Below, in pieces: positions 21,538 through 24,835 of a stretch of 64,000 bases of DNA. Position 1 is the stretch's first letter. Every line of letters starts with the position of its first letter. Made by a program: the position numbers and the translations under genes. Under the pieces are notes generated by a model that was not told the origin of the DNA, made no database searches, and saw nothing but the letters and a program-made list of their open reading frames with translations. The stretch comes from Rhizobium ruizarguesonis (GTDB lineage Bacteria > Pseudomonadota > Alphaproteobacteria > Rhizobiales > Rhizobiaceae): assembly GCF_012349115.1 (NCBI RefSeq), contig NZ_PQIG01000013.1, forward strand, positions 1 to 64,000, read 5' to 3'.

Positions 21538-22152
21538 CTACAGGATGTAGTACTTGAAGAAGTCACCAAGCACCCTGGCCAAGGCTATAAAAGACGGAAT
21601 AATGGTTAGGACGATACCAACAAGAAAAAGCAGAAAAACGGATGACCTTATCCATCCCGAAGAATTGTCTAGCTTCTCAAAATACGCGCGCAACGTAAAA
21701 TTTCTGACTGCGGGTTGAAGCTGTGTGCTCACACCAGCAACTATAGAGCTATGGTATAACGACGCTTCTTTGCCGACATCTGATTCAACCCCAGAGCGCT
21801 GAATAATCACCATCAACTTGGCTTTTAGATCCGAGGCGGTGACAAACGATTGCATGCGCTCAACATACTCATCCGACGAGTGAAAACGTTTCACGACTTC
21901 GGGACACGTTATGTGGAAAAAGAAGGATGCTACGCCGAAAATGAACAACCCAAAGTAAAGCAGGTAAAATCCAATGCTGAGCTTTGGCTCCAAAGCTGCT
22001 TCAGCAGTTGCCAACGGAGCGAGCAAGCCGATCACTTTGTCCTGTAACAAGATCAAGTAGCCGATAAATGGCATCAGGATCGCGAGCTTCGAAACTGGCG
22101 ACCTGCCGATTGCGCCAAGTGATGTCCAGGCAGGCGGCAACACCTCCTTCAT
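21538..22152 (-). CDS. Membrane protein partner of Sll1717-type ATPase
   Basis: A 204-residue membrane protein that I do not recognise by family. Hydrophobic segments lie at about 23-44 (LAILMPFIGYLILLQDKVIG), 58-81 (LSIGFYLLYFGLFIFGVASF) and 170-195 (VFLLFLVGIVLTIIPSFIAL). The middle, about residues 82-165, is soluble and helical. Its ATG overlaps the stop of the upstream ATPase gene by ATGA, indicating translational coupling and a shared function. The region is noticeably AT-richer than the core, as expected of acquired DNA. Since the ATPase is split by an IS, the pair is probably non-functional. Confidence 0.7.
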   Translation of the reverse strand: MKEVLPPAWTSLGAIGRSPVSKLAILMPFIGYLILLQDKVIGLLAPLATAEAALEPKLSIGFYLLYFGLFIFGVASFFFHITCPEVVKRFHSSDEYVERMQSFVTASDLKAKLMVIIQRSGVESDVGKEASLYHSSIVAGVSTQLQPAVRNFTLRAYFEKLDNSSGWIRSSVFLLFLVGIVLTIIPSFIALARVLGDFFKYYIL

Positions 22153-23457
22153 AGATCAAGCGCGTCCAAAAGGTTGTGGACGTTTTCAGGTTGAAGCGCC
22201 CAGCGATACGCTGGGTGAATTTCCCACGAATATCCAAAATCGACAATCTCGTGCCCTAGAAAACGCGACTGCTCGAAGTACTTTCTGTCAACGTTTCCAT
22301 CGTCAGATTCCTTTTTCGCTGTAATAAAGTCGATTTTGTAAAGGAATTGGATCAATGATCTCGAACTAATCGACTTACCGTTCGTGAAGGTAAAGTTATT
22401 TTGCTGAATAATTCGGGTTATTTTTTTCGAAAGCTGATCGGTTGTGAATGAGTAATTCATAGCAGTCCGCCGCTCATTCTTGTTTGGCTTCATTGCCAGC
22501 AACAGGCGCTCAATTTGAGGGAGTTCGCTTTTAAACTCGTTTATAATATCTTGCAGCCGTTCCTGAGAATACTCCTCAAACACTCCATTAAGGTCTGGAG
22601 AAGTTATCAGTGAACTACCGCGTCGGTTGGCTTTTTTGGCTGCGAGGCGAAATAGCTTCACCAGGTCGCGCGGTCTAGCGCGGGTTAGGGAAAGCAAAAT
22701 TTTATGGACCGGCCTATTCTCCCATTTTCCTTTTCCAGAGAATCGAGGTTCGATTACCTCTTTAAGAATAGCCGTTGTGATCTGGCCTTGATCCATGTTG
22801 CCGATGGCAGCCTCGGAATACTGCAACCTGAAAAACGTAGCGATGCGCTTAGCCATCACACGGAGGATGTCGTCGTTAATCCAGCGCAGCCAAATGACAT
22901 TGCTCTCGATCTTATCTGTCGACTCGTCGGATGTTCGGACGAGGAAATAAACGTCGCTTCTTAGGCCTATGCGAAAGCGAATGCGAGGATACTTCCCCCC
23001 CAAATCTCTAATCGCATTTAATAATGCAGAGATGTTGGTGATATCTTCTGGATTAGCCTTCCACCCCCGGTCGATGTCGTCGATGTAGATATTGAGGAAT
23101 CGGGGCTTGCCGTCTTTTCCCCCTTTTTGATCGAGCCATTTGACAATGATCTCAGCAAGAGAATCAGCACTGGCCGTATCTAGTTCCGACACCTGCCCTA
23201 GAGTGGCTTTGTCAAAAAAGGCCCCCAAGATTTCCCGGAGCATGCCTTTTTTCCAAACGGAGATTCTTTGGACGAATTGGTCCGTAGGCCTCGTGTCCAA
23301 CTGGACATTCAGGAGAGCATCTGGTTGCAACCAAACGCAAGGAACATCCATTTCCCGATCTTCCAAGAAGGCTCTTTTAAGGAGGGCGCTTTTGACCTTG
23401 CCCCGTTGAAATAATCCATTTTGAAGTAAGCTCTGGCCCATTTGAGAGGACCAGAGG

Positions 23458-23724
23458 ATGAAGCGCAATCGTTTCACAGACGAACAGATCATCGGCATAT
23501 TGAGGGAGCACGAGGCAGGCACGCCGGTCTCGGAGCTTTGCCGCAAGCATGGCGTCAGCGATGCCAGCATCTATAAATGGAAGGCCAAGTTCGGCGGCAT
23601 GGAGGTGTCCGAGGCCAAGCGGCTGAAGACGCTTGAGGACGAGAACACGAAGCTGAAGCGGCTTCTGGCGGATGCGATGCTCGACAATGCTGCCTTGAAA
23701 GACCTTCTGGGAAAGAAGTGGTGA
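23458..23724 (+). CDS. IS3-family transposase OrfA
   Basis: An 88-residue HTH protein: MKRNRFTDEQIIGILREHEA, then SELCRKHGVSDASIYKWKAK as the DNA-binding helix-turn-helix, and a leucine-zipper-like ETL pattern (LEDENTKLKRLLADAMLDNA). It recognises the IS ends. The last bases overlap orfB, consistent with programmed -1 frameshifting that makes an OrfAB fusion transposase. Confidence 0.92.
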   Translation: MKRNRFTDEQIIGILREHEAGTPVSELCRKHGVSDASIYKWKAKFGGMEVSEAKRLKTLEDENTKLKRLLADAMLDNAALKDLLGKKW

Positions 23725-24647
23725 CGCCCGCGGCCAAGCGGAAAGCTGTCGCGCATCTGATGAGCCATCATGAGATGAGCGAACGGCGGGCGTGTAAAGC
23801 CATTGGTTTTTGCCGAATGACGGTCCGTTACGAGACCAGGCGCGACGATGATCATGAGCTTCGCGAGCGAATGAAGGCGTTGGCGCATGAACGTCGCCGC
23901 TTCGGATATCGACGCATTCATGTGCTGCTCCGGCGGGAGGGTCACCTCGTGAACCACAAGAGGCTCTTCCGGCTCTATCGGGAGGAGAAACTGACGGTGC
24001 GCAAGCGCGGCGGTCGCAAGCGAGCGATAGGCACGCGAGCGCCGATGCTGGTGCCGATGGTGGCCAATGATCGTTGGTCGCTAGACTTCGTGTCGGATCA
24101 GTTCACCGATGGGCGCAGGTTGCGGATTCTGACCGTCGTCGATGATTGCACGAGGGAGTGCCTGGCGCTCGTCTCCGATACATCGCTTTCCGGTCTTCGC
24201 GTCGCACGGGAGCTTGACCGGATTATCGAGGAGCGCGGCAAGCCGAGGATGATCGTCAGCGACAACGGCAGCGAGTTCACCAGCAACGCGATCCTGCAAT
24301 GGGCGGACCGGACCAAAGTTGACTGGCATTACATTGCGCCTGGCAAGCCTATCCAGAACGCTTTTATCGAAAGCTTCAACGGGCGGCTGCGAGACGAGTT
24401 CTTGAATGAAACTCTGTTCTCGTCGCTTGCTCACGCCCGGTCCGCGCTTTCAAACTGGCGTAGCGATTACAACAATCAACGCCCGCATTCAGGCCTTGGC
24501 TGGCTGACACCGGCCGAATTCGCTCAGACACTCAACCCGCGACGTGATGCGGTGCTGCGCAGCCGAAATGGCTCCGCACCGCAACCCGCCGCTACCGAAC
24601 CAACAACAGCAACCAAAAACCGCTGGAGCGAACTCAAGACTGGATAA
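23718..24647 (+). CDS. IS3-family transposase OrfB (DDE catalytic part)
   Basis: About 309 residues from a GTG; in the element it is probably made mainly as an OrfAB fusion. After an HTH_21 region (RRFGYRRIHVLLRREGHLVN) comes the rve/DDE domain: Asp in WSLDFVSDQF, Asp in MIVSDNGSEFTS, and Glu in QNAFIESFNGRLRDEFLNE. The YIAPGKPIQNAF stretch is characteristic of the IS407 group. All catalytic residues are present, so the element may still be active. Confidence 0.92.
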   Translation: MVTPAAKRKAVAHLMSHHEMSERRACKAIGFCRMTVRYETRRDDDHELRERMKALAHERRRFGYRRIHVLLRREGHLVNHKRLFRLYREEKLTVRKRGGRKRAIGTRAPMLVPMVANDRWSLDFVSDQFTDGRRLRILTVVDDCTRECLALVSDTSLSGLRVARELDRIIEERGKPRMIVSDNGSEFTSNAILQWADRTKVDWHYIAPGKPIQNAFIESFNGRLRDEFLNETLFSSLAHARSALSNWRSDYNNQRPHSGLGWLTPAEFAQTLNPRRDAVLRSRNGSAPQPAATEPTTATKNRWSELKTG

Positions 24648-24835
24648 AACTTGGGGGCAAGGTCACTTTTTCCCACTCCCTTATGGCCAACGAGTATCCT
24701 CACGGGAAGATTTGAGGTCAGCGAGCCATAAGACATGTTCTTATAGAAGTATTCCTTGAGACGCTCGTCGTTCTCATTCTCAGCGTCGTCCGCGCCAAAA
24801 ATTTCCTGTATCGTCTCGTCGTCAAATTGGTGCAT

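Follow-up and report, generated by a model that had tools for sequence, protein, structure and literature searches.

We analysed a 64,000-nucleotide stretch of Rhizobium ruizarguesonis DNA (assembly GCF_012349115.1, contig NZ_PQIG01000013.1; hereafter the window), in which a genomic island carries, on the minus strand, a two-gene module composed of a P-loop ATPase of the Sll1717 family and a small membrane protein, with the ATPase gene interrupted by an insertion sequence (IS). The 5' piece of the ATPase gene (24666..24835) ends within the Ser codon of GVGKS; the minus-strand codons from 24835 to 24665 give ...GHKGVGKS, and the IS begins within that codon. Beyond the IS, the 3' piece (22149..23392) runs from 23390 through 413 open codons, beginning with SALLKRA, to a stop at 22149, where an ATGA overlap (22149..22152) joins the ATPase stop to the start of an intact gene for a 204-aa membrane protein (21538..22152), predicted to have three membrane helices around a helical soluble domain. 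Both ATPase pieces match the NF047389 model (P-loop ATPase, Sll1717 family), with 187.4 bits over positions 128-454 for the 3' piece (curated cutoff 75) and 38.9 bits over positions 1-43 for the 5' piece. The two closest intact relatives among the matches listed are 469 aa long and 90-91% identical to the 3' piece. The motif GxKGxGKS is invariant across 18 ATPase relatives (alignment A1) and is split by the IS in the window copy, so Walker A is not intact there; by reading, the conserved string NIYIDDIDR in the 3' piece would be Walker B. A hybrid frame of 473 aa (22149..23570, minus strand), which starts at an ATG within the IS and continues into the 3' piece, has GKVKS where the relatives have GVGKS. 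In the window the IS separates the 3' piece from its Walker A, and the best reading is that the module is dead here.

The IS (23393..24665, plus strand) is 1273 bp long, has perfect 12-bp terminal inverted repeats (23393-23404 and 24654-24665) and is flanked by the two copies of a CTTT target duplication (23389..23392 and 24666..24669). It contains two overlapping plus-strand frames, frame A of 88 aa (23458..23724) and frame B, the transposase, of 309 aa (23718..24647). Among 254 plasmid records, the 20 best are 98.8-99.8% identical to the IS over its full length, many of them annotated as ISRle4 of the IS3 family; the ends, the 4-bp duplication, the overlapping frames and this identity assign the element to ISRle4 and its IS407-like group, and nothing notable distinguishes it over the 1273 bp from the records listed. 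The 7.7-Mb source genome has one full and five partial ISRle4 matches, one of the five at a contig end.

The island begins at a plus-strand tRNA-Ala gene (GGC, 11868..11943), whose last 13 bases, CTTAGCTCCACCA, form the left repeat at 11931-11943 and recur as the right repeat at 25099-25111. Nine relatives were compared at this site. Genomes G025 and G009 each have one copy of CTTAGCTCCACCA in the stretch read, and the 3' end of their tRNA-Ala gene (window 11943) joins sequence matching 25094 onward; G033 likewise has no island, with the match restarting only at 25359, and the other six stretches, which have no match to the tRNA side, are uninformative. Because the repeats flank it and the empty site in G025 and G009 has a single repeat copy, positions 11944..25111 represent an insertion of 13,168 bp that combines flanking repeats from a tRNA end with an empty site, as expected of a tRNA-integrated island. 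The GC content of the membrane gene and the 3' ATPase piece is 47%, versus 62% for 25616-64000. These results bear out the first-pass annotation in its description of an AT-rich, island-borne pair, translationally coupled through ATGA, with a three-helix membrane protein and an IS407-like element with a CTTT duplication lying exactly in Walker A; the 469-residue frame that it obtained by virtual excision fits the length of the two closest intact relatives.

Recurrence of the pair and the partners of its two families

We determined how widely the ATPase is spread and how often it adjoins the membrane gene. The ATPase exceeds the curated cutoff in 22 of 300 genomes and in none of 14 control genomes; at E 0.001 a match is found in 43/300 genomes and, more weakly, in 3/14 controls. 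A housekeeping role, the outcome that the first-pass annotation had named as fatal to its proposal, fits this distribution poorly and was rejected as the leading explanation. All 18 ATPase relatives match NF047389, and a structure model of the ATPase matches ORC/Cdc6 and STAND folds, predicting an AAA+ fold of that kind. The family also travels on mobile elements: an Sll1717 ATPase is ORF1 of a Pf phage, with no membrane gene among its annotated neighbours, and three ATPase relatives were found in viral contigs. An Enterobacter plasmid encodes a 698-aa Sll1717 ATPase (L150, 4968-7064) behind a recombinase gene, and 16 Klebsiella plasmid records contain similar ATPases, about 24% identical to protein P0004.

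The pairing was counted at 79 ATPase loci from named records, which represent the best 80 of the 97 relatives confirmed and so under-sample distant ATPases. At eight of these loci the membrane family adjoins the ATPase, downstream in L002, L003, L005 (from R. multihospitium HAMBI 2975), L016, L037, L071 and L073 and upstream in L051, a count favoured by a membrane profile that was built partly from ATPase neighbours. In L016 and L071 the membrane gene seems to be truncated or frameshifted. A predicted membrane gene of any kind lies within 250 bp downstream of the ATPase in 15/79 loci; because the other 64 have none, the ATPase family does not consistently come with a membrane effector. On a quick ATPase tree of 69 proteins, seven of them labelled as paired, the label needs four changes, the starred branches force four, and none of 500 shuffles was as low; 11 of the 79 loci, including the partnered L016 and L037, were excluded from the tree because they contain stops or are too short. 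Thus, pairing was gained repeatedly or often lost: the pairs of rhizobia, Thiothrix, Desulfococcaceae and Geminicoccaceae either arose separately or are what remains after many losses. The Geminicoccaceae sequence sits on a long branch, and its placement is unsure. Chance adjacency explains this poorly, because the 79 loci total 1.15 Mb and just 9 of the 397 genomes of the order contain the membrane family, the source genome among them. The ATPase and the membrane gene are therefore a real unit. The first-pass annotation would have abandoned the proposal had homologues never stood beside the membrane gene; they do so at four or more places in the tree, and its view of the pair as a layout holds for these loci and not for the ATPase family at large.

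In the Mesorhizobium and Bradyrhizobium pairs, the ATPases of L016 (9041-9121) and L037 (9092-9172) show a -1 frame shift near residue 360-371. A programmed frameshift was considered and rejected: an AAAAAAG run lies at the L016 shift, L037 seems to shift some codons later, and we read the two as independent lesions or as errors in the sequence.

The membrane family is rare and unnamed. A first search gave nine proteins, the query included, and a profile with added neighbours and distant members gave 33 among 8000 candidates scored. No convincing match was found in Pfam, PHROGs or PADLOC for the 29 members scanned (best, marginal values 0.012, 0.019 and, for one member, 0.00038, respectively), nor in NCBIfam for the window protein, the sole member scanned there. 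A structure model of the membrane protein (29 rows, mean pLDDT 84.9) has membrane-length helices at 27-47, 60-82 and 166-203, with the helical domain lying between the second and the third.

Members of this family have partners other than the Sll1717 ATPase. In genome G132, a three-gene operon (L117) is followed after 16 bp by a membrane relative. The first two proteins of the operon match ABC-3C CTD9 (9.6e-31) and MC5 (3.5e-33) and the third is an ABC-type ATPase, with an AAA_23 score of 26.9 bits just under the cutoff of 27; these matches identify an ABC-3C operon. According to frames read by eye, it is located between a GNAT-like gene and uvrB, and an Sll1717-membrane pair occupies the space between the same two genes in G138. 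On plasmid pRL11 of R. johnstonii, a membrane relative lies behind a GmrSD-type gene, and type I restriction genes belong to the same cluster. Gene 017 of Rhizobium phage RHph_N28_2 is a member of the family, antisense among structural (head and tail) genes, and a copy 94.8% identical to it lies among phage-like genes in G073. In G132, G038 and G073 the membrane family is present with no Sll1717 match at E 0.001. Two single-protein queries retrieved no membrane-family locus from viral contigs.

Two further members deserve mention. At L144, a 190-aa protein (7432-8004) overlaps a long-form membrane relative and contains the string RNKFAH, which we take to resemble the HEPN nuclease motif; the protein has no Pfam match. 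R. leguminosarum WSM597 encodes a 72% identical membrane protein (P0126), no ATPase from the same contig appears among the 120 listed of 2523 matches, and the WSM597 ATPase may have been lost or broken.

A putative sensor and effector, and the alternatives

Our data, in an evenly balanced judgement, suggest that the pair was a device against phages or other invading elements: the ATPase would sense an invader and switch on the membrane protein. In the window, ISRle4 has cut the ATPase gene. The role of sensor would fall to the ATPase, whose fold class includes switch ATPases that oligomerise on ATP. On infection, it would bind ATP, oligomerise and dock on the soluble domain of the membrane protein, between the second and third helix, through which this putative effector would be held; once activated, the membrane protein would open or block the inner membrane and so halt infection. 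Loss of the ATPase alone should leave such an effector silent and not toxic, and the intact membrane gene behind a dead ATPase fits this expectation. In addition, because relatives of it are found downstream of an ABC-3C operon and, unaccompanied, in a phage, the membrane protein may be an interchangeable effector. We therefore raise, tentatively and with somewhat less than even confidence, the idea that it founds an undescribed family of portable effectors, captured repeatedly by unrelated sensors (the Sll1717 ATPase, the ABC-3C complex and a phage gene), with one inner-membrane killing or exclusion mechanism serving several immune systems.

Beyond the layout alone, on which the first-pass annotation had based the resemblance to defence or abortive-infection systems, recurrent pairing and shared partners make a defence reading plausible at the level of sequence. 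The other contexts of the membrane family and the Sll1717 ATPase in a Pf phage strengthen that resemblance; the neighbourhood of the ATPase genes does not. For 20 Rhizobiales ATPase loci, the three flanking genes on either side (120 proteins) were compared with 120 proteins of 20 control regions, taken from 15 of the same contigs, five of them used twice, at a distance of at least 81 kb; the 20 loci came from 25 over the cutoff, after omission of the window's own locus and of four that lie near contig ends or on short contigs (G013:C12, G167:C6, G215:C110 and G249:C169). At E 1e-10, 20 PADLOC models were matched near the ATPases versus 36 in the controls (25 listed), rough counts of models that are not independent: GajB accounts for 15 of the 25 control models listed, with one member each, and these GajB matches are probably one UvrD-type helicase. 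Counted by name, 14 systems were near the ATPases and 10 among the listed controls. Thus there is no clear excess of defence genes beside the ATPase, and an absence of enrichment is not proven either; the co-occurrence with known defence genes that the first-pass annotation had proposed as a check did not clearly emerge.

Besides the PADLOC counts, several results weigh against the proposed device. Most ATPase loci, as counted above, have no membrane gene just downstream, and the construction of the membrane profile favours the count of eight. A conserved GmrSD-membrane pair was not supported, the neighbour of the Sinorhizobium relative being unrelated by BLASTP. Comparison of the predicted membrane-protein structure with PDB and with viral models gave no match reaching E 0.001, although absent fold matches prove nothing. 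Protein P0004 scores 35.9 bits against the anti-phage model NF053860, well short of the 370-bit equivalog cutoff. PADLOC returned no family at E 1 for the window queries P0001, P0002 and P0003, and scattered weak matches, at best 0.00038, for 18 ATPase and 29 membrane relatives. In the literature, we found no tested function for any member of either family, the remote DS41 model aside, nor any result on a trigger, on toxicity or on phage for these proteins.

The same observations must be weighed under other explanations. It is unlikely, if worth serious consideration, that defence is provided by the ATPase without a partner, perhaps through a C-terminal winged helix that binds foreign DNA, as its fold class would allow, and that the membrane protein is an occasional anchor adding little. 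The 64 loci with no downstream membrane gene, the Pf phage ATPase and the weak match of all 18 ATPase relatives to NF053860 would all be expected if this were so, and Orc/Cdc6 ATPases are described as recurrent parts of conflict systems in PMC10853773 and PMC12839542, a precedent by analogy for the ATPase class and not for this pair. An optional extra, however, explains poorly a rare membrane family that was coupled several times or kept through many losses. We regard as distinctly unlikely a second explanation, that the pair serves the mobile element and not the host, either by excluding related phages and islands or by stabilising the island (superinfection exclusion or addiction). Its location on an island, the phage-borne membrane relative antisense among head and tail genes, and the ATPases in the Pf phage and in viral contigs point in this direction; yet two pairs stand beside genes read as core, uvrB and D-Ala ligase, and the membrane gene is still open with no working ATPase, so that, if it is still expressed, it does not look like a toxin needing restraint by the ATPase. 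A non-defence envelope or stress function, in which the ATPase assembles or clears the membrane protein, would suit the lack of clear PADLOC enrichment and of any tested function but is very improbable given the patchy spread, the carriage on island and phage and the member behind an ABC-3C operon.

If the sensor-effector model is true, bacterial immunity would gain a sensor class in a large ATPase family so far known by a locus name only, and a shared effector in a small membrane family with no convincing database match. The window would then be an example of this module interrupted by a transposon, its membrane gene still open.

Other genes of the island

Near the tRNA, a plus-strand frame of 343 aa (12137..13168), with no NCBIfam match, converges with a minus-strand frame carrying a sce7726-family domain (13004..14278; NF033832, E 1.1e-45), and the two (12137-14278) are another possible conflict pair. 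The 343-aa frame presumably resembles the phage T4 beta-protein family, often found next to sce7726. A stretch of core-like GC content (14100-20010, 60.5%) lies inside the island, and a CysQ-like frame (15721-16338) matches only positions 2-143 of 250, as in a truncated or frameshifted gene. No intact integrase was noticed on the island; three forward frames at 21000-21420 resemble, by eye, a decayed tyrosine recombinase, and two similarity searches of this possible relic found nothing. Window positions 20854-21041 match sequence to the right of the attachment site in G025 and G009, past the match to 25094-25527, and the right part of the island may be rearranged or a tandem insertion.

Comparison with known systems

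The closest named family, NF047389, carries a model that names no function, and most of the 79 loci compared have no predicted membrane gene just downstream of the ATPase. NF053860 (DS41_1_antiphage), which we take, from the name only, to be DS-41 of DefensePredictor (PMC13092281), is matched by the 18 ATPase relatives far below its cutoff; P0004 matches it in two stretches, best over the P-loop region, indicating remote kin at best. From the Orc/Cdc6 and STAND conflict ATPases (BrxC, BrxD, SspC, NACHT and others) of PMC12839542 and PMC10853773, the window ATPase differs in having no attached nuclease, TIR or repeat sensor and in having a small membrane protein as its partner. ABC-3C resembles the present pair in that a related membrane protein follows the CTD9-MC5-ATPase operon in G132; in contrast, the window pair has a single ATPase, of AAA+ type, and the neighbouring reading frames, inspected by eye, included no CTD or MC gene, a profile scan of every frame not having been made. 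On these comparisons the module would belong with systems already known that combine a sensor ATPase and a membrane effector, and the membrane family would be its more interesting half.
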